Assembly (NCBI GenBank): GCA_016865505.2
Contig: AP025252.1
Span: 4,278,001-4,342,000 of the forward strand
Direction: 5' to 3'
DNA: 64,000 bases
Source: Bryobacterales bacterium F-183
GTDB taxonomy: Bacteria; Acidobacteriota; Terriglobia; Bryobacterales; Bryobacteraceae
The notes below the pieces were generated by a model. That model was not told the DNA's origin. It worked only from the letters and a program-made list of their open reading frames with translations, and did not search any database. This document shows positions 34,389 to 51,590 of the stretch, in pieces. The position numbers and the translations under genes were made by a program. Position 1 is the first letter of the stretch; each line of letters starts with the position of its first letter.

Positions 34389-35939
34389 CTATTGCTGCAG
34401 CGAGGCCCGCCACTTCTTCCAGCCTCCAAAGCTGGTGATCTCTAGCGCACCCTTCAATCCCTGAGGCTCGCAGATAAAGCCCATCTCGCGGACCCCGTCC
34501 TCCAGGATGATCGACCCAATCCCCAATGGCGGCGGGATTAAATTCACAAACGACCCGAAGTTGCGCGCAGGCATCGCCCACACTTCCACATCAATCCCCG
34601 GGCCATCGAAGCCTTCTTCACGCACCAATCCGGGCTTGGGTGGCGTAGTGTTGGCCAGCGAGTACAGCCGGTAATTCTTCGCGGTCTTGCAGGTGCGGAC
34701 CAAACGGGCGTTACGCTCGGTCAACTGCTTGTTCAACGGCTGACCCGTCAGGTGCGCTCCCACCACCGTGATGCGAACTTCTTCGAGCCTCGCGGCTAGC
34801 TCGATGAGCGCCCAATCCGTGCGCGCCGGAGCGATCAGCGACACTCCGAACGGTAGGCCATTGGGACGGAAGCCCGCGGGAATCGCGATCGCCGCGAGGT
34901 CCAGCAGGTTGACGAAGTTCGTGTAATAGCCGAGGTTGGTGTTCAGCTTCAACGGCTCCGCTTCCACCTCCGCGATCTTGTACGTCGTACCCGTCGTCGG
35001 CAGCAGCAGGAAGTCCACGGTGTCCCACGTGGGCAGGGATTTCACGCGCAGCGCTTCCAACTTATACGACGCCTGAAACGCATCCACCGCCGAATACTTG
35101 GTGGCACCCAGGATGATGTCGCGCACCGTGGGATTCACAGCGTCTTTGTGCGACGCGATGAATTCGCCGACAGCGGCGTAGCGCTCGGCGACCCAGGGTC
35201 CTGCATAGAGAAGGGAAGCCGCGTCTTTGAACGGCGTGTAGTCGAATTCTACCGCTACTCCGCCCAACGCGGCGAGGCGATCGATCGAGTCTTGATACAG
35301 GCTCGCGGCTGCGATGTCGCCGAAGAACTCCCGCTGATTAACAGGCAGAATGCCGAAGCGGAACTTACCCGTCGCCCAGCCAGGCAGCGATGCGGGACGC
35401 GGCAGCACCGTCTCGTACACGCGTGCGCAGGTTGCGATGTCGCGGGTGAAGATGGTGACGCAATCGAGGCTCGCGCAGGCAGGCACTACGCCCTCATTCG
35501 AGATCACGCCCTTGGACGGTTTCAACCCCACGATGTTGTTGAAGGCAGCCGGTACGCGACCCGACCCCGCGGTGTCCGTACCTAACGCGAAGTCCACTTG
35601 GCCTGATGCGACCGCCACCGCCGACCCCGAACTCGAGCCGCCGGAGATGTACTCGGCGTTGAAGACACTCGACGGAGCACCGTATGGCGAACGTACACCG
35701 ACAAGTCCCGTGGCGAACTGATCCATGTTGGTCTTGCCGACGGCTACGGCTCCGGCTTGCTCAAGCGTAGCCACGATGGGCGCACTCTTGGCAGGCGTGT
35801 AGGCGTACGCGGGGCAGGCTGCTGTGGTGGGTACGCCAGCGTAGTCGATGTTGTCCTTGATGGCGAACGTCAGCCCTTGCAACGGCCCGGCCGCCGCTGT
35901 CTTGCGAGGGATTTCCGCGATCCACACGGGCGACTTCAT
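34389..35939 (-). CDS. atzF: Allophanate hydrolase
   Basis: The start is ATG 35939 (MKSPVWIAEI), overlapping the carboxylase stop by ATGA. The product is 516 residues. The amidase-signature triad is visible: Lys28 in LTFAIKDNID, the cis-Ser in ISGGSSSGSA (102-103) and nucleophile Ser126 in GTDTAGSGRVP. A C-terminal domain typical of allophanate hydrolases follows (LYSLANTTPPKPGLVREEG). It hydrolyses allophanate to two ammonia and two CO2. It is somewhat shorter than many homologues (about 600). It is the last gene of the carboxylase operon and finishes either urea or guanidine breakdown. Confidence 0.93.
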   Translation of the reverse strand: MKSPVWIAEIPRKTAAAGPLQGLTFAIKDNIDYAGVPTTAACPAYAYTPAKSAPIVATLEQAGAVAVGKTNMDQFATGLVGVRSPYGAPSSVFNAEYISGGSSSGSAVAVASGQVDFALGTDTAGSGRVPAAFNNIVGLKPSKGVISNEGVVPACASLDCVTIFTRDIATCARVYETVLPRPASLPGWATGKFRFGILPVNQREFFGDIAAASLYQDSIDRLAALGGVAVEFDYTPFKDAASLLYAGPWVAERYAAVGEFIASHKDAVNPTVRDIILGATKYSAVDAFQASYKLEALRVKSLPTWDTVDFLLLPTTGTTYKIAEVEAEPLKLNTNLGYYTNFVNLLDLAAIAIPAGFRPNGLPFGVSLIAPARTDWALIELAARLEEVRITVVGAHLTGQPLNKQLTERNARLVRTCKTAKNYRLYSLANTTPPKPGLVREEGFDGPGIDVEVWAMPARNFGSFVNLIPPPLGIGSIILEDGVREMGFICEPQGLKGALEITSFGGWKKWRASLQQ

Positions 35940-38900
35940 CGAATCACCGCCAGCACCTGCCCGGGCTGTACGATGGCGCCCGGAGCACAACGCAGTTCCA
36001 GCACTTCACCCGCGATGGGCGCCGTAATGGCGAGTTCCATCTTCATCGCCTCCAGTACGATCACGCGTTCCCCGTCGCCAAGCTTTTGGCCCACTTGGAC
36101 GGGGATGTTCCACACGCTGGCCGAGATCGGCGAACGTACGGCAGTCGCGCCTTCCGGCAGCGCATCTTCGACGGGCGGCGGCAGGTCTTCCAAAGCCGGT
36201 GCGATGTATTCCCCCCAGCGGTCGCGCTCTTCGCGGAACGCCTGTTCGCGCATCTGCTGGAACTCGGCCGCCTCCTTCTCAATCGACTTGAGGAACCGGC
36301 GATGATCCTCGATGCGGAACTCGCCGTCCTCGATGCGAGGCGTAAAGCTGCGGTCGGCACGCATCTCCAGCAACTCCTGCGCGGACACGGGATAGAACTG
36401 GATGCGGTCAAAGAAGTCCAAAAGCCAGGGTTTCTCGCCGTTGTACGTGTTCCACATCTGCGTGGTACGTCCGACGAACTGATAGCCGCCAGGACCTTCC
36501 ATGCCGTACACACACATGTACGCGCCGCCGATGCCGACAGCATTCTCAGGCGTCCAGGTGCGCGCGGGGTTGTACTTTGTCGTCACCAAACGATGGCGCG
36601 GATCGACAGGCGTCGCCACCGGCGCACCCAGGTACACGTCGCCTAAAGCGAGGGTCAGCCAGCTCGCCTCAAACACGATGCGGTACACATCATCGACGGA
36701 GCCGAGTCCGTTGATGCGGCGGATGAATTCGATGTTCCAGGGGCACCACGGCGCATCGGCACGTACGCCCTGCATGTACTTTTCGATGGCCAAGCGCGTC
36801 TGCGGATCGTCCCAAGATAGCGGCAGATGCACGGTGCGCGACGGTACCGACGTCAACGGATGCGCCTGCGCCGCGTCGATGCGTTCGTACAGTTCTGTGC
36901 GAGATAGCTTGGCCGGATTGTAGTGAATCTGCAGAGACCGGATTCCCGGCGTCAGGTCAATTAACCCCGGCGTACCCAACAATTGACGGCGCAGCGAATG
37001 CGCCTGCAATGAGAGTTCAAAATCAAGCTTATTCGGGCCGAATTCGACCAGCAGGTACTCATCGCCATCGGCGCGAATCACCGTACCTGGCGCTTCGCCA
37101 CGCAGTACGGCAGGTTCGTTGTTGACGCGCACAAAGCGGACGAGATCGCCTGCTTTGAGCTGCCCCATCTTCCAACGTTCGGACGCGACAATGGTCGCGG
37201 GACACACAAAGCCGCCGCAACTGGGACCATCAGGACCCAGGATGATCGGCATGTCGCCGGTAAAGTCCACGGTGCCGACAGCGTACGCGTTGTCGTGCAG
37301 GTTCGACGGGTGCAAGCCCGCCTCACCCCCGTCTTTACGGGCCCAAACCGGCTTCGGACCGAGCAGACGAATGCCCGTACGATCAGAGTTGTAGTGGACC
37401 TTCCACGCCGTCGAGAAGAACATCTCGATGTCGCCATCGGTGAAGAAGTCCGGAGCACCGTGCGGACCATAGGTCACGCCGATAGACCATTCTTTGCTGT
37501 AAACAGGCGGTTCCGCGATGGACTTCGGCTCGGCAGCAGCAGCGTTGCCGAAGCGCAGCAGATCGCCCATGCGCAGGAACTGACCGCCGAACTTGCCCAG
37601 AATAAACGTAGATTTGCTGCCCAGGTACGACGGCACGTCGATGCCACCGCGCACCGCGAGATAACCGCGCGCACCCGCGCCATTCACTGGGCCAAAGCGC
37701 AGTACATCGCCGGCTTTGACATGCAGCGGCTTCCAACGTTCGACGCCCATATCCGCGCCCGTAGCCGCGACCACCGCATCGTGATGGAACTTCAACGTCG
37801 GCCCGATCAGCGAAAACTCAAAGCCCGCCGCGTCGGGAGCATTGCCGACGATCTCGTTGGCCATGCGGAACGCCAGGTCATCAATTGGACCCGACGGCGG
37901 CACACCGACATCCCAATAGCCCAAGCGACCGGGGAAGTCCTGCACCGTCGATTGCGTACCCGGTTCGATCACTTCGATCGCGCGCGTGACGTACGCAAAG
38001 CGCCGCAGGAACGACGTTGGAAAGCCGCCTTTCTGGAACTCGGCATCCGCGCAGATGGCTTTCAAATAATCGACGTTGGTCTCAATGCCGCTGATCGTCG
38101 TGTGATCCAAAGCCTTTGCCAGCGCGGCTACGGCAGCCTCGCGCGTGTCTGCCTTGACGATGACCTTGGCCAGCAGCGGGTCATAAAACATCGACACTTC
38201 GCTACCGGATTCGATCCAACTTTCCACGCGCGCGACATCCGCGCCGGGCAGGGAAACCACGCCCAGGGAACCAGCACAGGGCACAAAGTCCTTCAGCGGG
38301 GATTCGGCGTACACACGAACCTGGATGGACGCACCCTTGGGCTCCACCGGCTTCAGTACATCTTCACCAGCGGCGCAGCGCACCATCCATTCCACAAGGT
38401 CCACACCCGTGACCTCTTCCGTCACGCCGTGTTCCACCTGCAATCGCGTGTTCACTTCCAGGAAGTAAAATTCGCCGCGATCATCGTCGTATAGGAACTC
38501 GACAGTACCCGCGTTGCGATAGGAGACTGCCTCGCCCATCTTGACGGCCGCCGCGAACAGCTCCTTGCGCGTCTCATCCGTCAAGCCGACAGCAGGCGTC
38601 TCTTCCACCACCTTCTGATTCCGACGCTGTGCCGAACAATCGCGCTCGCCCAGCGCCATCACGCGACCCTTGCCGTCGCCAAAGATCTGGACTTCAATAT
38701 GCCGCGCGCGCTCGACAAAGCGCTCAGCAAACACGCCGCCGTCTTTGAAGTTGGTACGGCTCAGGTTCTCGATCGAGGTAAATGCTTCCGACAGTTCCTC
38801 CGCCGTACGGCAGATGCGCAGACCAATGCCGCCGCCGCCTGCCGTGGACTTCAGCATCAGCGGAAAGCCAATGGCCGCAGCGTCGGCTGGATTCGACAGC

Positions 38901-39298
38901 AGTCCCGTACCCTTCAACAGCGGTACGCCTTGTTGCTCGGCGATCTCGCGAGCCTTGTGCTTCAGGCCGAAGTCGTTAATCTGCGATGGCGTGGGTCCGA
39001 TGAAGGTGATCCCTGCCGCTTCGCAGGCATCGGCAAACGCGGTGTTCTCGGACAAAAACCCATAGCCGGGATGTACGGCCTGCGCGCCGGACTGGCGAGC
39101 GGCGTTCAAGACAGCGTCCACATCGAGGTACCCGCGAGGTCCCCCAACGGACACTGCCTCGTCGCACATGCGGACATGGAGCGAGCCGCGGTCTGCTTCC
39201 GAATAGATGGCGACGCTGGTAATGCCCATCGCACGCAGAGTACGAGCGATGCGGCAGGCGATGGCGCCGCGATTGGCGATCAGAACTTTGGAAAACAT
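35936..39298 (-). CDS. Biotin-dependent urea/guanidine carboxylase
   Basis: This is a 1120-residue multidomain enzyme. A biotin carboxylase domain (1-450) has the ATP-grasp GGGGIGLRICRTAEEL and EVNTRLQVEHGVTEEV. Then come AHS2/KipA-like (about 450-760, AIEVIEPGTQSTVQDFPGRLG) and AHS1/KipI-like (about 780-1000) domains that form the carboxyltransferase. A biotinyl domain follows with Lys1086 in VLEAMKMELA. The annotation urea carboxylase is traditional. Because two DUF1989 genes lie directly upstream, guanidine is the more likely substrate, giving carboxyguanidine. Overlap with atzF indicates coupled synthesis. Confidence 0.92.
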   Translation of the reverse strand: MFSKVLIANRGAIACRIARTLRAMGITSVAIYSEADRGSLHVRMCDEAVSVGGPRGYLDVDAVLNAARQSGAQAVHPGYGFLSENTAFADACEAAGITFIGPTPSQINDFGLKHKAREIAEQQGVPLLKGTGLLSNPADAAAIGFPLMLKSTAGGGGIGLRICRTAEELSEAFTSIENLSRTNFKDGGVFAERFVERARHIEVQIFGDGKGRVMALGERDCSAQRRNQKVVEETPAVGLTDETRKELFAAAVKMGEAVSYRNAGTVEFLYDDDRGEFYFLEVNTRLQVEHGVTEEVTGVDLVEWMVRCAAGEDVLKPVEPKGASIQVRVYAESPLKDFVPCAGSLGVVSLPGADVARVESWIESGSEVSMFYDPLLAKVIVKADTREAAVAALAKALDHTTISGIETNVDYLKAICADAEFQKGGFPTSFLRRFAYVTRAIEVIEPGTQSTVQDFPGRLGYWDVGVPPSGPIDDLAFRMANEIVGNAPDAAGFEFSLIGPTLKFHHDAVVAATGADMGVERWKPLHVKAGDVLRFGPVNGAGARGYLAVRGGIDVPSYLGSKSTFILGKFGGQFLRMGDLLRFGNAAAAEPKSIAEPPVYSKEWSIGVTYGPHGAPDFFTDGDIEMFFSTAWKVHYNSDRTGIRLLGPKPVWARKDGGEAGLHPSNLHDNAYAVGTVDFTGDMPIILGPDGPSCGGFVCPATIVASERWKMGQLKAGDLVRFVRVNNEPAVLRGEAPGTVIRADGDEYLLVEFGPNKLDFELSLQAHSLRRQLLGTPGLIDLTPGIRSLQIHYNPAKLSRTELYERIDAAQAHPLTSVPSRTVHLPLSWDDPQTRLAIEKYMQGVRADAPWCPWNIEFIRRINGLGSVDDVYRIVFEASWLTLALGDVYLGAPVATPVDPRHRLVTTKYNPARTWTPENAVGIGGAYMCVYGMEGPGGYQFVGRTTQMWNTYNGEKPWLLDFFDRIQFYPVSAQELLEMRADRSFTPRIEDGEFRIEDHRRFLKSIEKEAAEFQQMREQAFREERDRWGEYIAPALEDLPPPVEDALPEGATAVRSPISASVWNIPVQVGQKLGDGERVIVLEAMKMELAITAPIAGEVLELRCAPGAIVQPGQVLAVIR

Positions 39299-39303
39299 TT
39301 ACC

Positions 39304-39900
39304 CTACTGGACGATTAACCGGACTGGTGTGGGATTGTAGGCGTTACAGGGATTGTTCAACTGCGGGCAGTTGGAAATCAGCACGAGCGTATCCATCTCG
39401 GCATAAAGTTCCAGGTACTTGCCGGGCGCAGAGAGACCGTCTTCAAACGTCAGCTTGCCTTCCGGCGTCACCGGGACGTTCATAAAGAAGTTGATGTTCG
39501 ACACGATGTCGCGCTTCTCAATGCCGTGTTTCAGACCATACTTCATAAAAGTCTGCCGGCATGCATGCATGTACCGCTTGCCGATGTCGTAGCGCACCAT
39601 GTTCGATTCCTGCGAACACGCGCCGCCCAACGTGTCGTGACGGCCGCACTGATCTTCCGTGATGGTCATCAGCACGTTGCCATTCTGGGTCAGCAGCTTC
39701 GACCCCTTGGTGAGATAGATGTTGCCCTGCGCGTTGATCGTGTCGATCGCCGAATAACGGTCTTCTTTATCGTGCGCGTTGTAAAGCAACGTGTCGACAG
39801 CCTGGTTGCCCTCCAGGTCGATGATGCGGAGCGTTTCGCCCTTCTTGACGACCTCACACCAACCGTCGCCCGCGAGTACGGTTACGTCGATCCGCGGCAT
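39304..39900 (-). CDS. DUF1989 protein UAAP2, carboxyguanidine deiminase subunit
   Basis: The start is ATG 39900 ([11 protein letters not shown]), two bases after the preceding gene. The product is 198 residues. The DUF1989 fold is recognisable by [38 protein letters not shown] and [21 protein letters not shown]1 and UAAP2 were long called urea-amidolyase-associated. They are now known to form a heteromeric deiminase converting carboxyguanidine to allophanate plus ammonia. Conserved Cys and His in DQCGRHD likely contribute to the metal or active site. It lies six bases before the carboxylase gene. Confidence 0.88.
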
Positions 39901-39901
39901 A

Positions 39902-40612
39902 CTAGCAGCACCTCGCATTGATCTCAAAGCCACGTCCGTTCTCAGGACGCGACAGACGGCACTTGTCATCCGCTCCGGCCGGCGGCACCTGCTTGACGGT
40001 GATCTTTACCGGCTTTGGCGCGTAGGTTGAGCCTGGCTCCCACGGATGATGATTGGCATTCAACACAAGCAGCGTACGCATCTCGGCGCGCAGTTCGACG
40101 TACGAACCGGGCTTCGAACTGCCGGGTATGTACTTCATGACGCCGTCCAGGTTGCACTCCACTTTGCTGAAGAAGTTCAGCGTGGGAATCCAGTCGCGTG
40201 GACCTAGCGAGTACTTCGCCAGTTCCAGCAGCATCTGCTCCTTGGGGGCCTGCGTCCACTCGTTGCGATGCTCCTGATAGCTTTTGACGCCATACTTCTT
40301 CGCAAGCGACTTCTCGTCGAGGACGCCGCCCAGCGGGTCGTGCCACCCGCAGGTGTCGTGCGTGACGGACCACATGATACGGCCCATGTCCGAATAGATG
40401 CAGAAGCCTTCGGTGAGGCGCGCGATGTGCTGCGCCTTCAAGGTGTCCGGCATGTTGTAACGCTCTTCCATATGCCGGGAGTTGTACATGAGGGCGGACA
40501 CGTTGGCGCCGCCCTCGACATCGGTGAGGCGGATGGCCATGCCAAGGTCAAAGATATGCGACCAGGTCTGGCCTCCGCGGAGTTCTTCTTCCCAGAGGAT
40601 CTTTTCTTCCAT
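39902..40612 (-). CDS. DUF1989 protein UAAP1, carboxyguanidine deiminase subunit
   Basis: This 236-residue protein is homologous in outline to its neighbour: [40 protein letters not shown] and [20 protein letters not shown]. It is the UAAP1 type, longer at the C-terminus ([20 protein letters not shown]). Together with UAAP2 it should form the carboxyguanidine deiminase that acts between the biotin carboxylase and allophanate hydrolase. The gene follows the propeller gene by six bases and precedes UAAP2 by one. Confidence 0.88.
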
Positions 40613-40618
40613 TTGTCT

Positions 40619-41665
40619 CTACTTCAGCAGCTTTGCTGGATCGAGTCTCCAAATATTCTGTTCTCTCAAGTTTGACAGCCATACGGACCCGTGTGCGAAC
40701 AGCACTGCGTCGCCACCGGCTCCGGCCCACTGATGGGTAACCTTATCCGTCTTCGCGTCGATGCGTGTCAGAGGGATCTGGAACACGGTCAACCATACCG
40801 CGCCGCCACCGGCAGAGATTTCGCCACCGCCACCGGGTACGCCACACTGAATGGTCGCGACCACCTTCTTGGTCTTGGGATCCACCTTCGACACCGTACC
40901 GTCGCCCTGATTGAGGGTCCACACAAAGCCTTCGCCAACCGTAAGGAAGCGCGGCTTGGGACCCACCTCGATCTTGTCCGTCACCGTGTTGGTCTTGGGA
41001 TCGATGCGCGTCAGGATGTTGCCGCTCGACTGCGTCACCCATACGGCGCCTTCGCCGTAGTCCACGGTGTGCGACCCGGAAACGATGGCGATCTCTTTCT
41101 CCACTTTGTTGGTGGTCGGGTTGATGCGCAGAACCTTGTCGCCTTCGGCGCCGCTGGCAATCCACACTGCTTCGGGCGACACGGCGATGCCGCCTTCGGA
41201 GTTCGCGGGCGGGGCATCGATGAACGCCACGAGCTTATTGGTCTTGATATCCACACGCGCGACACCGGAGTTGGTGAAGTCGGTGGGACGTTCGCGATTC
41301 CGGTCGCCACACGTCGGCGCCCAGATACTGCCGAACCCAAACGCGATGCCGCTGCAGGGCGCCTTGCCGACTTCGATCGTCTCTTCGACGATGTTGGTCT
41401 TGGCGTTCAGCTTCGACACCGTACCCTTGGGCTTGTTCGACACCCAGATGCCGTCCGGAGCGGCTGTGGTCCAATCCGGAACGCCGGGCACCGGGAACAC
41501 CGCATCGGGCGTGATCTCCGTCATCGGCTTCTGTACTTCCTTGACGCCAGGCAGCGGCGGCCGCTGCGGACGCATGCCTTTCTTCTGCTGTGGAGGGCCG
41601 GGCGGCGGCGCCTCCTGCGCCATGACGGCGATTGCGGTTAGGAATAGGACGAATGAGTTTCGCAA
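40619..41665 (-). CDS. Exported Vgb/YncE-like beta-propeller in the guanidine operon
   Basis: The start is TTG 41665 (MRNSFVLFLTAIAVMAQ), with GAGG seven bases upstream, overlapping the symporter 3' end by 28 bases. The product is 348 residues: a signal peptide, a Pro-rich linker, then propeller blades repeating the pattern VSKLNAKTNIVEETIEVG, VLRINPTTNKVEKEIAI, LTRIDPKTNTVTDKIEVG and VSKVDPKTKKVVATIQC. It resembles streptogramin-lyase/YncE propellers but the lyase residues are not evident. It is probably a periplasmic binding or sensing protein. A related propeller is encoded behind the divergent TonB receptor. Confidence 0.85.
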   Translation of the reverse strand: MRNSFVLFLTAIAVMAQEAPPPGPPQQKKGMRPQRPPLPGVKEVQKPMTEITPDAVFPVPGVPDWTTAAPDGIWVSNKPKGTVSKLNAKTNIVEETIEVGKAPCSGIAFGFGSIWAPTCGDRNRERPTDFTNSGVARVDIKTNKLVAFIDAPPANSEGGIAVSPEAVWIASGAEGDKVLRINPTTNKVEKEIAIVSGSHTVDYGEGAVWVTQSSGNILTRIDPKTNTVTDKIEVGPKPRFLTVGEGFVWTLNQGDGTVSKVDPKTKKVVATIQCGVPGGGGEISAGGGAVWLTVFQIPLTRIDAKTDKVTHQWAGAGGDAVLFAHGSVWLSNLREQNIWRLDPAKLLK

Positions 41666-43074
41666 AGAAGGACCTCGGTGTTCTCAACAGTAGATGGTTT
41701 GGTCAAAAGGCTCGTGGTAAAGAACGCGACCGCGCTGATGACGGGAGGCAGTAGCGTATCGAGCCCGGCCCATGCGGCAGGAACCGCAAAGTAACAGATC
41801 ATGCGGGCCAGCGTACCGGCCAGGATGCTGGCAATGGCACCTTCGGAGGTGGCCCGTTTCCAGTACACCCCAAAGAACAGCGGAATCACGCAGCCGGCAA
41901 ACACGATGTCGAACGCCACCACCAGCAGGATGCCGGGTTCGGGACGCACATACGCGATCCAACCGGCGGCGATCGAAACGGGCAGAGCCAGCACGCGCGA
42001 CAGCATCAGCATGAAAGAGTCAGAAGGAGTTTTGGCGGTCCACCGCTGCCAGATGTTACGCGCCATCACGATTGAGATCACCAGCATCGCGCCGTTGGCG
42101 GTGGACATCGACGCACCCAGTACGCCAACAAACACCATCACGCCGATGATGTACGGCAGGAACTGGCCGGCGTACGCTGGCATCACCATTCGGGGATCGT
42201 CCAGCTTGCCTACCGAAGAGATAGCCGCGAGTCCAATGAGCGAAGCGCACAGCCCGATGATGATCGTCCAGCCTGCAGCGTAGTAGCAGGCGCGGCGTGC
42301 GGTCTCAGGGGACTTGGCGGAAAACACACGCTCCATAAAGTCCAGCGCCATCGCATTGCCGAACCCCAGCGAGATGATGCTTGCCCAGTTGGACAGCCCG
42401 CCTCCAGCCAGCGTCGTCATCTGCGCGGGGTCCAGGGTCGAAGCCGGCAACTTCGCCAGTACATCGCCCAGTCCGCGCGTCCACAAAATGTATCCAGCAG
42501 CGAGCAAAAAGCCCAGAATCGCGATGTGGATCTGGAAGAAGTCCGTCCACAGCGCCGCGTACAAACCGCCGGCCACTGTGTACACCAGGATCACAGTAGT
42601 ACCAATCACCAAACACGTTCCATAATCGAGCCCGCTGACCACGGACAGGATCCACGCCACAGCGGACAGATTGCCGGCCACCAGGATGATAAAGCACACC
42701 ATGGTGAGCATCGATGTGAGCAGTTCGGCGTACTTCGAATAGCGGCGGTAAAAGAACTCGGGCAGGGTGAGCAGGTCCATCTTGTGGAGCGGAGCGGCCA
42801 GAAAGCGCCCGACCACTATGAGACTAAGTGCTAGTCCCAGCGGAATAGCCGCCCCTGCCCAGAATCCGGTAGTGAGCGTAAGCGATGCATTCCCCAAGGT
42901 CGCATTGCCGTCAATGGCTTGCGCCGCGAGTCCTGTACCCACCACGATGAACGGCATAGCCTTGCCGCAAACGGTGTAGTTCTTACTCGATCCCCGAACC
43001 TGTGTGTAGGTGTAAAGTCCGATCGCCAGTGAGATGGCCATGAAGATCACAACAGGCCACAGCATTGCTGTCAC
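41638..43074 (-). CDS. Sodium:solute symporter (SSS family), first gene of guanidine operon
   Basis: I chose GTG 43074 (MTAMLWPVVIF), with GAGGA seven bases upstream; ATG 43065 in the same frame is the alternative. The product is about 478 residues with 12-13 transmembrane segments. SSS-family features include AMPFIVVGTGLAAQAIDGNATLGNA, PEFFYRRYSKYAELLTS and VIILVYTVAGGLYAALWTDF-like helices (here VILVYTVAGGLYAALWTDF). The substrate is unassigned; position as first gene suggests uptake of guanidine, urea or a precursor. Its promoter lies in the shared region at 43157-43195. Confidence 0.88.
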   Translation of the reverse strand: MTAMLWPVVIFMAISLAIGLYTYTQVRGSSKNYTVCGKAMPFIVVGTGLAAQAIDGNATLGNASLTLTTGFWAGAAIPLGLALSLIVVGRFLAAPLHKMDLLTLPEFFYRRYSKYAELLTSMLTMVCFIILVAGNLSAVAWILSVVSGLDYGTCLVIGTTVILVYTVAGGLYAALWTDFFQIHIAILGFLLAAGYILWTRGLGDVLAKLPASTLDPAQMTTLAGGGLSNWASIISLGFGNAMALDFMERVFSAKSPETARRACYYAAGWTIIIGLCASLIGLAAISSVGKLDDPRMVMPAYAGQFLPYIIGVMVFVGVLGASMSTANGAMLVISIVMARNIWQRWTAKTPSDSFMLMLSRVLALPVSIAAGWIAYVRPEPGILLVVAFDIVFAGCVIPLFFGVYWKRATSEGAIASILAGTLARMICYFAVPAAWAGLDTLLPPVISAVAFFTTSLLTKPSTVENTEVLLCETHSSYS

Positions 43075-43167: not shown

Positions 43168-43193
43168 TTTCTATTTGACCCTTGAAATAGAAA
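43168..43193. promoter_or_regulatory. Operator-like inverted repeat between divergent promoters
   Basis: Perfect 9-bp arms TTTCTATTT (43168-43176) and AAATAGAAA (43185-43193) are separated by 8 bases. With a one-base bulge the arms extend to GG/CC. The repeat covers the -35 of the rightward promoter and the -35/spacer of the leftward promoter, so a bound dimer would control both the guanidine operon and the TonB receptor. No regulator gene is adjacent. Confidence 0.6.
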
Positions 43194-43204
43194 CCTTTTA
43201 TGAT
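43175..43204 (+). promoter_or_regulatory. Sigma70-type promoter of the TonB receptor
   Basis: TTGACC (43175-43180), an 18-base spacer, then TATGAT (43199-43204). Transcription would begin near 43211, leaving a leader of about 110 nt. The ATG at 43200 lies inside the -10 and therefore cannot be the receptor's start codon. Confidence 0.7.
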
Positions 43205-43210
43205 CCTGTT

Positions 43211-43322
43211 ATTCGCTTCCGTGGGGTTATCGGAAGCTGGTACCCGCCTAGTCAGCGTGCTCAATGTGCGAGCCACCCCAGCGCCAGTGTTGGCGCAAAG
43301 ATCACGTCTTTGGGGGCTTTAC
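43211..43322 (+). ncRNA. Structured 5' leader with alternative pairings, candidate riboregulator
   Basis: Four helices can form: GCTTCCG/CGGAAGC (43215-43221, 43231-43237), GCTC/GAGC (43259-43262, 43270-43273), GCGCCA/TGGCGC (43281-43286, 43291-43296) and AAAGA/TCTTT (43297-43301, 43307-43311). ACCCCA (43275-43280) can pair with TGGGGT in the loop of the first hairpin (43222-43227), making a pseudoknot. Alternatively its CCCCA can pair with TGGGG at 43311-43315, which is the likely ribosome-binding site before TTG 43323. The two pairings exclude each other, the hallmark of a translational switch. It does not match a riboswitch consensus I know. Confidence 0.5.
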
Positions 43323-46300
43323 TTGAAGAAAACAATCGTCTGTTTGGCACTTGCGGCGCTCGGACTGCAAGCGCAAACCAGCTCTATCCAGGGCTCGGTG
43401 ACGGATGCTCAGAATGCCATCGTACCCACCGCAGTGGTTACGCTCACCAACGTCGGCACCTCCGCCTCGCGGAAAACCGTAGCGGCCGACGGCACCTATA
43501 ATTTTGCCCAGGTTCCTCCGGGAACTTACAAGCTGGAGGCACAGAGCCCCGGCTTTCGTACCTACGTCGCGGACGTAGTGCTACAGATCAACGTCCCGTC
43601 CACTCTCGACATCAAATTGGAAGTCGGCCAGGTCACGGAAGTGATCCGCGTAGAAGAAGTCGCACCCACCGTGAACACCCAAAACGCCACCGTCGGCAAT
43701 GCGTTCACAGAAACCCAGGTCCGCCAGCTTCCCTTGCAGACCCGCAACGTCGTGGAACTCCTCAGCGTACAGCCGGGCGTAACCGCCACCGGCGAAGTTC
43801 TCGGCGCCCGCCGCGACCAGAACAACGTCACGCTTGACGGCGTCGACGTCAACGACAATCAGAACTCCGGCGTCACCTCCTCCAGCCAGAACGCGCAGAC
43901 CGCCGGCGCTGCAGGCCTCACTTCCGCGCTTCCCGTGCCGCTCGATTCGGTTCAGGAATTCCGCGTCACCATCGCCGGTCAGGGCGCCGATCAGGGCCGC
44001 TCTTCCGGTGGCCAAGTCTCGCTCGTCACCAAGTCCGGTTCCAACGATTTTCACGGATCTCTGTATGAGTTCCACCGCAACGTCAAGACGGCCGCCAACG
44101 ATTGGTTCTCCAACCGCTCGCGCCTCCCGCGCGAAGCGCTGATCCGCAACCAGTTTGGCGCCTCGCTCGGCGGCCGCATCATCCGCGACAAGGCGTTCTT
44201 CTTCCTCAACTGGGAAGACCGCAAGGACCGTTCGGCCTCCGCACAGTCCCGCAACGTACCCACCGAAACCCTGAAGCAGGGCATCGTGCAGTTCCGCCAG
44301 AACGATGGCACCATCGGCCAGATCAGCCCGTCGGAAGTACGCTCGGTCGACCCGCTCGGCCTCGGCGTAAATCCCGCCATGATGGAACTGTTGAAGCAGT
44401 ATCCCGCCGCCAACGACCTCGCTGCCGGCGCCGACCGTGGCCTGAACTTTGGCCTCTTCCGCTTCAACGCTCCGCTCACCCGCAACGATCGCGCCTACGT
44501 TGCCAAGTTCGACTTCAACCTCACCCAGAAGCAGAGCTTCATGGTGCGCGGCACTCTCGCCGACAACCAGCGCGACGAAGTGCTCGCCCAGTTCCCGGGC
44601 CAGGACGCGGCCGCCAAGAACATCGACAACTCCCGCGGCCTCGCGGCGCGTCACACCTACGTGTTCTCGCCCACCCTGGTCAACGTATTCAACTTCGGCT
44701 ATACCCGCCTCGGCATCGCCCAGACCGGTTCGCCCAACAACTCTCTCAGCTTCGACGGTCTTTCCACCTTTGAGAACTTCACCCGCGGTTTTGGTCGCAT
44801 CATCCCGACCACCAACCTGGTGAACGACCTCACCTGGACCAAGAAGACCCACACCGTACAGGGCGGCATCAACTTCCGCATTATCCAGAACGACCGTACG
44901 TCGTTTGCCACCTCGTACCTCAGCCACAGCTTCTCGCGTAACACCCTCGCCGGTCTCGGTGCCGACGCCAGCAACGCGGTCATCGCGTTCATCCGTCAGC
45001 GCTCGGGTACCTCCACTTTGGGTCTCGCCGAAACGCAACCCACGCAGCGCGCTCTGGGCATTCTGCTCGGCGTCATCAACCAGTACAGCGGCACCTATAA
45101 CTTCGACCTGTCGGGCAAGGCCGTACCGTTCGGTCAGCCGATCGCCCGTAGCTTCGCCGCCCGCGAGTACGAGTTCTACATCCAGGACGTCTGGAAGATG
45201 CGTAAGGACCTAACGCTCACCTACGGTGTCCGTTACGGCAACTACGCTCCTCCCTATGAAAAGAACGGCGTGCAGGTTACCCCCACCGTGCCGATCGAGC
45301 AGGTGTGGGACCAGCGCGTTGGTTCCGCCTTGGGCGGCTTCACCAACAGCAACATCGCCGACCTCACCTTTGCCGCTGCCGGACCTGCCAATGGTCGTGA
45401 CAGCTGGTATCGCCGTGACAACAACAACTGGGCTCCCCGCCTGAACATCGCCTACGCCCCCACCTACGACGGCTTCTGGGGTACGTTGTTCGGCAAGGGC
45501 TCCGTCATCCGCGTTGGCGCCTCGGTGCTCTATGACCGCTACGGTTCGAACATGGTCACCAACTTCGACCAGTCCGGTTCGCCCGGTCTCGCCACCCAGC
45601 GCACCCAGCCGGTGAACACCAACTTCACCACTTCGGCCCGCTACGGCATCGGTTCGCTCCCGTCCATCCCCAGCGCTCCTGCCGCTGTGTTCCCCTTCAC
45701 GCCCGACGTCGCCGTCGGCGGATTCGGAGCCTACCAGGGCGCGTTCTCGAACCTCGCCGCTCCGTACAACTACCTGCTGAACGCCAGCTACGCCCGTCCG
45801 CTTCCCGGCAAACTGGTCGTTGAAGTTGGCTACGTCGGCCGCCTCGCCCGCAAGAGCCTGGTTCGCCTCGACGTCTTCCAGCCCTCCACCCAGTTCAAGG
45901 ATGCCAAGTCGGGCCAGACCTGGACCCAGGCCGCCGGCATGCTGCGTGATCATTACGAGCGTGGCGGCACCGCTGCCAACGTTCCCACGGTCGCCTTCTT
46001 TGAAAACATGTTCCCCGGCGCCGCCAACCGTTACATCACCGGCAGCGCCACCGCCAACTACTTCCACACCACCTACAACACCTACGCCGGTTCGGACCTC
46101 GACGCGCTCAACGATATGGATCGCGTCCGCCAGTCCAACGGCCAGTGCCTGTCGGTGTTCGGCTGCAACACGTTCTTCATGCGTCAGGCCGCCGGTTTCC
46201 CGGCATGGTCCAACATGGGCCGCTCCTCCTACCACGGTGGTCAGCTGACCTTGCGCCGCCCGGTCACCCAGGGCTGGGGCTTTGACTTCAACTACACCCT

Positions 46301-46970
46301 GTCGAAGTCGATCGACCTCTCCTCCGGCGCCGAATCGGCTGGTGCGACCATCCAGGACAGCTTCAACCCCACCGGCTTCCGCGGTCTGTCAGACTTCGAT
46401 GCCCGGCACAACATCACGGCCAACACCGTGGTGGACCTGCCGTTCGGCAAAGGCCGTCGCTACCTGAACAACGCCCCCGGCATTGTGAACACACTGCTCG
46501 GCGGCTGGGGCACCTCGATGCTCTGGCGCTATCGCTCCGGCAACCCGCTCTCGGTCACCGCTGGTGGCGTCTACTCGGTCAACTACCTGACCTCTTCGCT
46601 CGGCATCGCCCGCCCCGGCGCGACCTTGCCCACCGCTCAGGTACAGATCAACGCAAACGGCAATCCCAGCCTCTTCTCGAATGTGAACGGGGTAAACTCG
46701 ATCATGGCTGCCTATCCCGGAACCACCGGTACCCGCGCTATGTTCACCGGACCCTCGATGTCCAACTTCGACCTCTCGCTCAGCAAGTACTTCTCTGTGC
46801 CGAAGCTCGAAGGCCATCGCGTCCAGTTCCGCGCCGAAGCATTCAACGCCTTCAACAACGTCAATTTCACTTCGCCCAGCCTGAACCTGTCGGCGCCGTC
46901 CACCTTCGGACAGCTGTCCGGCGTGATGCAGGCCCGAGTGATGCAGTTCGCCCTGCGCTATGAGTTCTAA
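43323..46970 (+). CDS. Oar-like TonB-dependent receptor with carboxypeptidase-regulatory domain
   Basis: I place the start at TTG 43323: GGGGG lies six bases upstream and the signal peptide LKKTIVCLALAALGLQAQ begins there. The product is 1215 residues. Order: signal peptide, CarboxypepD_reg-like domain (about 20-100, IQGSVTDAQNAIVPTAVVTL), plug domain (LPLQTRNVVELLSVQPGV, NNVTLDGVDVND), and a long 22-strand-type barrel ending in FALRYEF. Codon use is strongly C-ending, as in highly expressed genes. This is the common acidobacterial surface receptor for oligomeric or peptide-like substrates. It is divergent from the guanidine operon and coupled to a propeller gene. Confidence 0.92.
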   Translation: MKKTIVCLALAALGLQAQTSSIQGSVTDAQNAIVPTAVVTLTNVGTSASRKTVAADGTYNFAQVPPGTYKLEAQSPGFRTYVADVVLQINVPSTLDIKLEVGQVTEVIRVEEVAPTVNTQNATVGNAFTETQVRQLPLQTRNVVELLSVQPGVTATGEVLGARRDQNNVTLDGVDVNDNQNSGVTSSSQNAQTAGAAGLTSALPVPLDSVQEFRVTIAGQGADQGRSSGGQVSLVTKSGSNDFHGSLYEFHRNVKTAANDWFSNRSRLPREALIRNQFGASLGGRIIRDKAFFFLNWEDRKDRSASAQSRNVPTETLKQGIVQFRQNDGTIGQISPSEVRSVDPLGLGVNPAMMELLKQYPAANDLAAGADRGLNFGLFRFNAPLTRNDRAYVAKFDFNLTQKQSFMVRGTLADNQRDEVLAQFPGQDAAAKNIDNSRGLAARHTYVFSPTLVNVFNFGYTRLGIAQTGSPNNSLSFDGLSTFENFTRGFGRIIPTTNLVNDLTWTKKTHTVQGGINFRIIQNDRTSFATSYLSHSFSRNTLAGLGADASNAVIAFIRQRSGTSTLGLAETQPTQRALGILLGVINQYSGTYNFDLSGKAVPFGQPIARSFAAREYEFYIQDVWKMRKDLTLTYGVRYGNYAPPYEKNGVQVTPTVPIEQVWDQRVGSALGGFTNSNIADLTFAAAGPANGRDSWYRRDNNNWAPRLNIAYAPTYDGFWGTLFGKGSVIRVGASVLYDRYGSNMVTNFDQSGSPGLATQRTQPVNTNFTTSARYGIGSLPSIPSAPAAVFPFTPDVAVGGFGAYQGAFSNLAAPYNYLLNASYARPLPGKLVVEVGYVGRLARKSLVRLDVFQPSTQFKDAKSGQTWTQAAGMLRDHYERGGTAANVPTVAFFENMFPGAANRYITGSATANYFHTTYNTYAGSDLDALNDMDRVRQSNGQCLSVFGCNTFFMRQAAGFPAWSNMGRSSYHGGQLTLRRPVTQGWGFDFNYTLSKSIDLSSGAESAGATIQDSFNPTGFRGLSDFDARHNITANTVVDLPFGKGRRYLNNAPGIVNTLLGGWGTSMLWRYRSGNPLSVTAGGVYSVNYLTSSLGIARPGATLPTAQVQINANGNPSLFSNVNGVNSIMAAYPGTTGTRAMFTGPSMSNFDLSLSKYFSVPKLEGHRVQFRAEAFNAFNNVNFTSPSLNLSAPSTFGQLSGVMQARVMQFALRYEF

Positions 46971-48422: not shown

Positions 48423-51400
48423 ATGTTAGGGAAGTCGTATTCGGTTCTTGCGCTATCCGCCACAGCGCTGGCGGTTCAACTGCACGCGCAGCAAAATCCC
48501 AGCTCTCCAGAATTTTTCGAAACCAAGGTTCGTCCGGTGCTCGCCACCAACTGCTTCGGCTGCCACACCAACGGCGCCATGGGCGGTTTGCGGCTCGACA
48601 GCCCGGAAGCCATCGCCAAGGGCGGCAAACGCGGCCCCGCGGTCGACACCAAAAATCTCGACGGCAGCATCCTGCTTACGGCCATCCGTCACACCGAACC
48701 CAGCTTGAAGATGCCCATGGGCAACAAGCTGAAGGATGCGGAAATCGCCGACATCACGGCGTGGGTCAAGGCCGGCGCGCCCTGGCCAAAGTCTGCCGTA
48801 CAGGTATCGGCCAAGAGCAAGTCCGGCGAATTTGAAATCCTGCCGGAAATGCGCAAGTTCTGGTCGATCGTGCCGCTCAAGCCGACGCCTGCGCCCGCGG
48901 TCAAGAACGCTGCCTGGCCCAAGACGGAGGTCGACAAGTTCGTTCTGGCCAAGCTTGAGAAGGAAGGCATCAAGCCGGTGGCCCCCGCCACCAAGCGCGA
49001 CCTCATCCGCCGCGCCTCACTCGATCTCACCGGTCTCCCTCCGACCTATGAAGAGATCCAGGCGTTTGAAGCCGACAAGTCGCCCGACGCTTTTGCCAAG
49101 GTTGTCGACAAGCTCATCGCCTCGCCCCACTTCGGCGAACGCTGGGGACGCTTCTGGCTCGACGTCGCCCGCTACGGCGAAGACGACTACCGCTCCTTGA
49201 ATCCTTTCCCCCGCGGCTACCGTCCGTACCCCAACGCGTACACCTATCGTGACTGGGTGATCAACGCGATGAACGACGACATGCCGTACGACGAGTTCAT
49301 CAAGGCCCAGCTTGCTGGCGACCTCATGGACCGTACGCAGAAGCACAAGTACCTGCCGGCCACCGGATTCCTCGGCCTCGGCCCCTGGTACTACGACAAC
49401 GGCGCTTTTGAAATCACCCGCGCCGACGAACGCAACGATCGCGTGGACGTCGTCACCCGCGGCTTCATGGGTCTCACCGCCGCCTGCGCCCGCTGCCACG
49501 ATCACAAGTACGATCCCATCAGCCAGAAGGATTACTATGCGATGGCCGGCGTCTTCTACAACACGATCTATGAGGAGTACCCGATGGCGCCCAAGAGCGT
49601 CGTCGACGAATTCCTGAAGCTCGAAGAAGACATGGATCGCCAGCAGAAGATCCTGCAGGAAGCCAACACCCAGCTCTTGAACGATCTCTCCCGCAGCCTC
49701 GCCTATCAGACCTCGAACTACCTGCAGGGTGCCTGGGAAGTCGCCGGGCCGCAGAAGAAGGATATGGCGGCGGTCGTCGAAGCCCGCAAGCTCGACTTCG
49801 AAGTGCTCGATCGCTGGATCAAGTACATGGCCAAGCCCACCACCAAGTACAAGCACAAGGATGCGTGGCAGGCCATGATGAAGCGTCCCACCAGCACGAT
49901 GCAGGAAGCCAAGCGTCTTGCCGACGACCTACAGGAAAAGATCATCGCCGTGATGCTCGAACGCAATGAGCTCGACGCAGAAAACAAAGTGATCATGGCC
50001 AAGGACCTCGAAGGCACCAAGCCCAAGAAGCGCACCGACAAGCCGTCCAACTTCACTTCGTTTAAGGACTTCAACCCCGGCGCTCACCTCGAGTTCAAGT
50101 CGCTGCCCGAAGCGGACAACAACTTCTGGACCGAAGTCTTCCAGCGCGAACTCCCCGAAGCGGACGACCCCAACGCCATGATGGCCATGGGCATGCGCAG
50201 CTTCAAGCCCGGCGTACTGATGTTCCGCGGCTGGGCTCTCGAATCCCGCCTCGGCGCCGAACCGCAGGCTCGCCTCAAGACCATCCAGGGCGGCATCGAC
50301 GCTCTTCGCAAAAAGCTCGAAGCCAAGTTCCCCTTCGTGCACGGCGTGCGCGACGCGGAAAAGCCCGAAGACATCAAGCTGCACTTCCGTGGGGACCCCG
50401 CCAACCTCGTGGGCGAACCCATCAAGCGCCACTTCCTGTCGATCCTGTCGCCCAGCGACAAGCCCATCGAGTTCCGCCAGGGTAGCGGTCGTTTGGAACT
50501 CGCCGAACTCATCGTCGGCCAGCCCATCACGTCCCGCGTCTACGTCAACCGCATCTGGAAGCAGCTGTTCGGTTCCGGCATCGTCGACACGCCGTCCAAC
50601 TTCGGCATGACCGGCGAACGACCCACCAATCCTGAGCTGCTCGAATACCTCGCCGACAACTTCACGCGCAACGGTCGCTCCACCAAGAAGCTCCTGCGCG
50701 AACTCGTCCTCAGTTCGACGTATCAGTTGTCCTCCGCCAACGACCCCGCCGCGTTCGCCAAGGATTCGGGCAACCGTCTCTACTGGCGCGCCGCCCGCAA
50801 GCGTATGGACGCCGAACAGATTCGCGACTCCATCATGCAGGTGTCCGGCAACCTCGACCTCTCCCTCGGCGGACCTTCCGTCGAGCTCACCCCCGCGATG
50901 CTGCGCCGCACGGTGTACGGCAAGATCAGCCGCTACAAGCCCGACGAATACCTCATGTTGTTTGACTTCCCGACGCCGCTCATCAGCGCCGAGAAGCGCT
51001 TCCAGACCACCGTCCCCGGACAGCGCCTCTTCCTGATGAATTCGGACTTCATGCAGATTGAAGCGGAAGAGTTGGCCAAGCGCGTCGCCAATGAAGCCAA
51101 CAACCGCGAACGCATCAAGAAGGCCTACCGCCTCGTCTACGGTCGCGACGCCAGCGAAGAAGAAATCGCCCTCGGCATCGACTACCTGAAGAACGAGCCT
51201 CTCCGCGAATACGAAGAGCGCAAGAAGAAGGCGGAAGAAGAAAAGAACAAGCCCAAGGACGGCGCGCCCAAGCCCGCCGGTCCCGTCGAAGTCACCGGAG
51301 GCGCACCCGCCGTACCGATGCCCACCGACGTCGCCGGCAAGCCGATGCCCATGCCAATGCCTGTAGGCATCCAGGTGGACGGCAACGGCGCCGCCGCCAT

Positions 51401-51590
51401 GCCCATGGACATGCCCCCGCCCGTTGGAGCAGCCGCTCCCATGCAGGCGATGGGCGCAGGCATGATGGGTGGCATGGGTGGACGTCGCGGACCCGGTCCC
51501 GCCGCCCCCGAAGTGAAGTACGAACCAACGGCCTGGGGCCGTTACGCCAAAGTGTTGCTCAGCTCGAGCGAGTTCCTGTTCATCAACTAA
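48423..51590 (+). CDS. Exported PSCyt1/DUF1549/DUF1553 cytochrome-type protein
   Basis: This 1055-residue protein has a signal peptide (LALSATALAVQLHAQ). A planctomycete-type cytochrome domain has a heme motif CFGCH (44-48). DUF1549 begins near KFWSIVPLKPTP and contains CARCHDHKYDPI, a second CxxCH. DUF1553 (about 690-1000, LELAELIVGQPITSRVYVNR, STYQLSSAND) follows. Just before the conserved end YAKVLLSSSEFLFIN lies a Met/Pro/Gly-rich insertion of about 80 residues. GAGGGG precedes the ATG. The family always occurs with DUF1501; both are thought to act in periplasmic polymer breakdown, but biochemistry is lacking. Confidence 0.9.
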   Translation: MLGKSYSVLALSATALAVQLHAQQNPSSPEFFETKVRPVLATNCFGCHTNGAMGGLRLDSPEAIAKGGKRGPAVDTKNLDGSILLTAIRHTEPSLKMPMGNKLKDAEIADITAWVKAGAPWPKSAVQVSAKSKSGEFEILPEMRKFWSIVPLKPTPAPAVKNAAWPKTEVDKFVLAKLEKEGIKPVAPATKRDLIRRASLDLTGLPPTYEEIQAFEADKSPDAFAKVVDKLIASPHFGERWGRFWLDVARYGEDDYRSLNPFPRGYRPYPNAYTYRDWVINAMNDDMPYDEFIKAQLAGDLMDRTQKHKYLPATGFLGLGPWYYDNGAFEITRADERNDRVDVVTRGFMGLTAACARCHDHKYDPISQKDYYAMAGVFYNTIYEEYPMAPKSVVDEFLKLEEDMDRQQKILQEANTQLLNDLSRSLAYQTSNYLQGAWEVAGPQKKDMAAVVEARKLDFEVLDRWIKYMAKPTTKYKHKDAWQAMMKRPTSTMQEAKRLADDLQEKIIAVMLERNELDAENKVIMAKDLEGTKPKKRTDKPSNFTSFKDFNPGAHLEFKSLPEADNNFWTEVFQRELPEADDPNAMMAMGMRSFKPGVLMFRGWALESRLGAEPQARLKTIQGGIDALRKKLEAKFPFVHGVRDAEKPEDIKLHFRGDPANLVGEPIKRHFLSILSPSDKPIEFRQGSGRLELAELIVGQPITSRVYVNRIWKQLFGSGIVDTPSNFGMTGERPTNPELLEYLADNFTRNGRSTKKLLRELVLSSTYQLSSANDPAAFAKDSGNRLYWRAARKRMDAEQIRDSIMQVSGNLDLSLGGPSVELTPAMLRRTVYGKISRYKPDEYLMLFDFPTPLISAEKRFQTTVPGQRLFLMNSDFMQIEAEELAKRVANEANNRERIKKAYRLVYGRDASEEEIALGIDYLKNEPLREYEERKKKAEEEKNKPKDGAPKPAGPVEVTGGAPAVPMPTDVAGKPMPMPMPVGIQVDGNGAAAMPMDMPPPVGAAAPMQAMGAGMMGGMGGRRGPGPAAPEVKYEPTAWGRYAKVLLSSSEFLFIN

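Follow-up and report, generated by a model that had tools for sequence, protein, structure and literature searches.

Some leaders, such as RNA thermometers and ribosomal protein leaders, sequester the Shine-Dalgarno (SD) sequence, and the ribosome-binding site can then be hidden by an anti-SD segment. Acidobacteria have greatly expanded their family of TonB receptor genes, and the open-licence literature that we searched contained no account of RNA-controlled TonB receptors in this group or of the element described below. Solibacter usitatus presumably belongs to the same order as the organism studied here. Solibacter-1 is a candidate RNA from that species which, according to the available part of its description, has no Rfam number and is classed as not cis-regulatory; we set it beside our leader by description only (PMC2864571). 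Guanidine-II (mini-ykkC) is outlined in the available part of PMC12186494 as a switch acting on translation through a pair of small sensor elements upstream of the gene, and operons for guanidine carboxylase and carboxyguanidine deaminase are described there as well. In Bacteroides, translation of TonB-dependent transporters is controlled near the 5' end of the messenger; the available part of PMC11697453 describes FopS small RNAs, which control SusC-type transporters, and RbpB, an RRM protein.

Here we describe a structured leader before an Oar-type receptor gene in the window, by which we mean the whole 64,000-nucleotide stretch of DNA that was analyzed, part of a genome of 6.28 Mb (Table 1). 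Comparison of leaders shows four hairpins, P1, P2, H2, and P3, in a fixed order and inherited with one clade of Oar-type receptors. Unlike SD-sequestering leaders in general, this one has, in addition to its computed SD pairing, a conserved core hairpin marked by a loop motif. It differs from guanidine-II in its YYGUY-like loops, in the lack of an Rfam match, and in its occurrence away from guanidine genes. In the Bacteroides SusC-type messengers, as far as the available part of PMC11697453 describes them, the small RNA pairs near the start codon, whereas here it is the leader itself that bears conserved hairpins.

Table 1. Positions in the window of the leader, its elements, and the adjoining promoter and gene
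Feature	Position	Strand	Basis or remark
Sigma-70-like promoter TTGACC-18-TATGAT, predicted	43175..43204	+	Sequence
Conserved structured leader	43213..43325	+	R2 covariance-model match over all 111 positions of the model
P1 hairpin CTTCCG-TGGGGTTAT-CGGAAG	43216..43236	+	6/6 pairs double-changed in A5
P2 hairpin CGC-CTAGTCA-GCG	43245..43257	+	In A5, three inner pairs invariant, outer pair covarying
H2 core hairpin GCTC-AATGTGC-GAGC	43259..43273	+	Motif CUC-N3-GY-N1-2-GAG at 43260-43272
Anti-SD segment GAGCCACCCCA	43270..43280	+	Overlaps 3' arm of H2; GAGCC.CCC pairs with 43312-43319 (minimum-energy fold)
P3 hairpin GCGCC-AGTGTT-GGCGC, degenerate YYGUY loop	43281..43296	+	4/5 pairs covary in A5
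P4 hairpin AAAGA-TCACG-TCTTT	43297..43311	+	Minimum-energy fold only
Shine-Dalgarno GGGGG	43312..43316	+	Sequence; 6 bases 5' of start codon; computed paired probability 0.99
Oar-type outer-membrane receptor	43323..46970	+	Start TTG 43323; Pfam OMP_b-brl_4 1.3e-132, CarboxypepD_reg 6.8e-17

The reading frame of the receptor, which we take to be an Oar protein, is open back to position 43200. L010 and L039 denote one gene of a sister species (84% identity), and there the corresponding TTG is immediately preceded by a stop codon, so that by this comparison TTG 43323 is most likely the start of the receptor. The same stop codon and the variable loop length oppose a leader peptide, a candidate that we rejected. 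The position of the predicted promoter would place the transcription start at about 43211, 5' of hairpin 1, and a start downstream of hairpin 1, which an earlier note on this DNA had named as evidence against its own proposal, is not what the prediction gives. Similar hexamers, with a spacing of 17 to 18 and TATGAT or TATGCT as the -10 element, are present in 7/7 relatives checked from the same subgroups; the pattern is absent from the 5/5 L083-L088-type leaders checked. Downstream of the receptor, at 48423-51590, lies a gene whose large DUF1549/DUF1553 product includes a cytochrome c domain, and the same family is found downstream of both L083-L088-type receptors that we read (L237 and L241).

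The relatives found by sequence carry Acidobacteriota names, several of them Bryobacterales. A covariance model (R1) built from five leaders of receptors 68 to 70% identical to the window receptor finds the L083-L088 leaders (receptors 60 to 62% identical) at E values of 1e-6 to 1.6e-4 and L039 at 0.19 in 381 kb, and does not recover the window leader at E <= 1. Model R2 joins the five leaders of R1 to L083-L088; its 11 leaders all come from other species, and none is from the window, its genus, or the L058/L060/L062 group. R2 finds the window leader with 24.9 bits and E = 1.8e-4 in 427 kb, and the same search returns L062 (1.3e-5), L060 (7e-5), L039 (0.0018), and L058 (0.065). Within its own genome, with 150 of the 2368 first-look candidates scored, the window leader is the only R2 match at E <= 10 (E = 0.0026). 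A second copy was also sought there by DNA comparison, in which the best other match has E = 0.03.

Across 257 genomes of the order, R2 gives 25 matches in 22 genomes at E <= 0.1. Fifteen of these lie directly 5' of receptor genes; 11 of them went into building the model and so match necessarily, leaving four that are independent (G000, G001, G175, and G176). The other 10, read by eye, have no receptor start directly downstream and are within chance expectation for 257 genomes; one of them presumably resembles the antisense of 23S rRNA. The G174 leader, L058, was missed by this search. No Rfam family reaches its gathering score in the window, guanidine-I, guanidine-III, cobalamin, and other riboswitches included, or in 20 related loci. 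Around the window leader there are only two weak, unrelated matches (E of 2.9 and 6.9); among the relatives' leaders, L011 has none and L083 only weak, unrelated ones (weak E values of 0.8 to 8.4 over the window and L083). The scan agrees with the earlier note, which had recognized no known riboswitch motif in the leader: no Rfam family fits. Judged from these comparisons, the leader is evidently a real structured RNA, without an Rfam match and specific to one receptor clade.

All four hairpins that the earlier note drew in the leader are present, with P4 as a possible fifth, and the compensatory changes in homologous leaders on which it would have its proposal judged are found in two sets of leaders, A5 and A6. 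Both sets were aligned to the structure with the model, a procedure that favors that structure, and the leaders share kinship, so the following counts are not independent: in A5, 12/19 pairs and 33 cells are double-changed, against 9.8 +- 2.6 in shuffles (0/500 reach the observed value) and at most 13 in slid frames; in A6, which comprises eight R2 matches of the 427-kb search, the window included and two of them weak (E of 0.49 and 1.1), 16/19 pairs and 21 cells are double-changed, against 5.8 in shuffles. The letters of the P1 loop vary between leaders, and the covarying outer pair of P2 does not form in the window leader. H2 is nearly invariant in A5, with 3/4 pairs (CUC/GAG) unchanged. In relatives, P3 loops read ACTGTCC, TCCTGTCC, and similar. 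The fold energy of the window leader is ordinary (z = -0.81; 40/200 shuffles equally good), and unusual stability of the fold was looked for and not found. The structure of the leader is well supported; what we say of its mechanism below is what we infer from it.

The core of the leader is H2. Its motif, CUC-N3-GY-N1-2-GAG, with a hairpin loop of 6 or 7 bases, occurs in 35/59 leaders of related Oar receptors (receptors roughly 44 to 100% identical), compared with 2/59 on the reverse strand, 0/65 control leaders, and a mean of 0.67 (maximum, 3) in 200 shuffles; the motif was spotted by eye in the same leaders in which it was later counted, and G-Y was widened from G-T after reading. The G-T form alone is found in 21/59 (reverse strand, 1; controls, 0; shuffle mean, 0.35). 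Leaving out the window's own subgroups gives 29/53, and leaving out L047, which was added to the close set by hand when already known to bear the core, gives 34/58. More distant Oar receptors have the core in 2/22 leaders, and it is absent from 5/5 leaders of receptor family f3 (44 to 48% identity, starts uncertain). These counts come from 126 leaders, of which 17 were dropped as duplicates or for uncertain starts or short upstream sequence (core in L010, L012, L047, and L121, absent in 13) and the remaining 109 were clustered to 80; the control genes were taken by a simple frame-and-SD rule from 400 kb of this one genome. The core is missing from 24/59 close leaders. L107 (G000:C1:786437-787037), the only other close receptor paralogue found in this genome, is among these.

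Leaders fetched once the pattern had been settled carry the core in 7/16 cases (four with G-T), one of them (L227) from another order of the class. These 16 are a partial hold-out, as L191-L193, L198, and L199 are near known leaders and L200 resembles L044, and they were read over a longer stretch than the main count (-260 to 20 to 45 bases past the receptor match). L196, with 4 bases upstream, and L201, identical in sequence to L044, were left out. The reverse strand, checked in 14 of the 16, has one match, in L203, which is also positive on the forward strand. We also tried and rejected a genome-wide core regulon: the 12-mer CTCCNNGYNGAG, a form that does not match the window's own core (CTCA), occurs 83 times compared with 109 for the reversed control and is not enriched.

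The pair just outside CUC/GAG is Watson-Crick in 21/35 leaders, against 9.6 expected (0/5000 shuffles), with three kinds of pair; the second pair out has no significant covariation (9/35, 6.4 expected, p=0.16). These pairs bear on the reading of CTC-N6/7-GAG as a DNA palindrome, bound by a transcription factor just 3' of the promoter. The arms are indeed palindromic and stand about 50 bases after the predicted start, but we hold an operator to be very improbable. The G-Y orientation is fixed (35 versus 2 of 59), the loop varies in length, and the adjacent pair covaries in the manner of an RNA helix, and these three features together argue for an RNA rather than a DNA operator or a coding stretch.

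Hairpins with similar loops recur in these leaders. YYGTC-loop hairpins are found in 23/80 leaders, compared with 3 on the reverse strand, 3/65 controls, and 4.0 +- 2.0 in shuffles. A further YYGUY hairpin is present in 13/35 core-bearing leaders (shuffled, 3.2), and a YYGUY hairpin is present in 13/24 leaders without the core (shuffled, 2.3), with backgrounds of 2 and 2 on the reverse strand and 6/65 in controls. The stems vary around the kept loop (GCGAG/CTCGC, CCCC/GGGG, GCCCT/AGGGC, TGCGC/GCGCA). The window leader has P3 as its second hairpin, with a loop, AGTGTT, that itself fails the YYGUY pattern. In a separate subgroup (L074, L079, and L080), 8 to 10 bases perfectly complementary to the leader's own SD lie inside a hairpin, for example CCCC-TCCGTCC-GGGG, and compensating changes occur between members (TTACCCCT/AGGGGTAA and CTACCCCT/AGGGGTAG).

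In the minimum-energy fold of the window leader, the 3' side of H2 (GAGCC.CCC) pairs with GGGGGCUU, covering the start codon as well as the SD. The L040 and L083-L088 groups have the masking segment on the 5' side of H2 (TCCCCT/AGGGGA or CCCCCT/AGGGGG). In the L058 group, AGCCC at the same 3' place as in the window is complementary to the SD region, and the minimum-energy folds of L058 and L060 mask with other segments. The SD is paired with a probability of 0.85 to 1.00 in 13/13 clade leaders folded, and forcing H2 lowers this pairing in 12/13; in the window it falls from 0.99 to 0.89 only, and the forced fold costs 3.5 kcal/mol. Among 24 leaders, forcing H2 reduces SD pairing in 19, leaves it unchanged in 2, and raises it in 3. 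In core-bearing leaders, C follows CTC in 17/21 with the SD GGAG versus 3/12 with GGGG (p=0.003), as expected if the H2 arm also pairs with the SD. SD masking is thus a consistent feature of the computed folds of the window's clade, and, as in a translational riboswitch, a conserved covarying structure appears to overlap the computed masking element. From the folds we infer a switch between the masking helix and H2. The L083 leader contains three copies of the hexamer GACTCC, located around the masking segment and 5' of the SD.

We considered whether masking is general to Oar leaders and set this aside as weak. SD pairing over 58 close Oar leaders is 0.814 versus 0.770 in shuffled leaders, and control genes have a similar gap (0.679 versus 0.629); exchanging each SD for another is a weak test, with 572/5000 permutations as extreme for energy and 23/5000 for the longest run. 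Such figures speak for a constitutive leader, whose hairpins would tune basal translation or shield the messenger without the involvement of any switching factor: occlusion of the SD barely exceeds that of shuffled leaders, controls behave alike, and forcing H2 alters SD pairing in the window little. Against this, the loop is kept while the stems around it change, which points to recognition rather than mere stability, and we consider a purely constitutive role unlikely.

The folds also bear on the two-state switch proposed in the earlier note, in which ACCCCA at 43275-43280 would pair either with TGGGGT in loop 1, forming a pseudoknot, or, through CCCCA, with TGGGG at the SD. Both complementarities are present in the window. 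The match to loop 1, six bases long in the window and five in L039, is four bases or fewer in the 10 other leaders checked, all of which keep P1, so that the pseudoknot is possible in 2/12 leaders, both of one genus, and is at most a genus-level feature. For the anti-SD half, relatives do keep an SD-masking segment, written in other letters, but the computed masked state lies in another register than the one proposed, and the fifth pair of the proposed register (A43280) is lost in L039, where A is replaced by T and the SD and its 5' flank are unchanged. In this specific form the switch is most improbable.

At 35936-43065, genes running in one direction encode a urea-carboxylase-type enzyme, two DUF1989 proteins (UAAP1 and UAAP2), a beta-propeller-like protein, and a sodium:solute symporter. 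The set, which we take to be a guanidine carboxylase set and thus likely a guanidine-use cluster, adjoins the receptor divergently. The Pfam matches of the carboxylase-type enzyme include no allophanate hydrolase (amidase) domain. Symporter, DUF1989, and carboxylase genes are also present at L040 and at the G174 and G175 loci, which belong to the L058-type group. Two loci of the L083-L088 type (G005 and G133) have no guanidine- or urea-carboxylase gene among the 12/12 frames of at least 150 residues called in the flanks read. These frames encode aminotransferase, S13 peptidase, LexA, beta-helix, HlyD-like, and 3-keto-disaccharide hydrolase proteins, as well as DUF1501 and DUF1549/DUF1553 proteins, and three are without a match. 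R1 matches the L083-L088 leaders, and because the same leader occurs at these two loci with no guanidine genes nearby, guanidine, which the earlier note had put forward for probing, is unlikely to be the signal. At the loci read, the leader thus appears to go with the receptor and not with guanidine genes.

The guanidine-II family has no match at E <= 10 around the window leader, L011, or L083. Guanidine-II loops read ACGR, and tandem hairpins with such loops are not found in the window leader, in which the loops are TGGGGTTAT, CTAGTCA, AATGTGC, and AGTGTT. The L011 and L070-L073 leaders contain a hairpin, CTCCCACGACGGAG, with an ACGA loop that recalls guanidine-II; this likeness was dropped, as L011, the one leader tested, has no Rfam match. 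A metabolite riboswitch in a wider sense would use the YYGUY-loop hairpins as its sensor, with ligand binding freeing the SD. Its translational plan with two similar-loop hairpins would resemble guanidine-II in outline, as far as the available part of PMC12186494 goes, and a novel riboswitch would agree with the lack of a fitting Rfam family. Yet the 12 clade leaders have few invariant letters apart from CUC..GU..GAG and CGCC, receptors vary in the stems and lengths of their leaders, and the two subgroups read have no metabolic neighbors in common. A metabolite sensor is, in our estimate, rather unlikely, and the scarcity of invariant letters outside the hairpin core is no less compatible with recognition by a protein or small RNA than with a riboswitch.

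We think it somewhat probable that this conserved, roughly 110-nt untranslated RNA at the 5' end of the messenger governs translation of the receptor through the balance between H2 and the masking helix, together with a factor. In the free RNA, the SD, and in the window also the start codon, would be paired to a segment that overlaps H2, and by this overlap H2 and the masking helix would be mutually exclusive. H2 alone is predicted to be unstable in most members, and its arms and loop G-Y are among the most conserved letters of the leader; since a hairpin so weak on its own is nonetheless so strongly conserved, a factor that recognizes its loop is likely. By binding YYGUY-type loops, that of H2 and often a second such as P3, the factor would probably tip the equilibrium between the two helices and determine the level of receptor synthesis. 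The most likely candidates are RNA-binding proteins and small RNAs, and a metabolite is less likely. Four RRM-1 matches, together with Hfq and CsrA, are present in this genome and may be considered as possible partners. The earlier note's interpretation is partly supported: the Rfam-less leader, the compensatory changes, the predicted upstream start, and the computed masking of the SD all stand, and the pseudoknot and guanidine do not.

More tentatively, and with less confidence than we give the control of this one receptor, the leader may belong to a new class of Acidobacteriota sensory leaders in which one or more YYGUY hairpins (core CUC-N3-GY-N-GAG) precede a large clade of Oar-type receptors, a dedicated ligand, protein, or small RNA couples receptor synthesis to substrate, and the anti-SD segment co-evolves with the SD of each receptor. 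The covarying motif offers a concrete handle that can be probed, mutated, or used as bait for its binding partner. RNA control of this receptor would parallel, by other means, that of the SusC-type transporters of Bacteroides.
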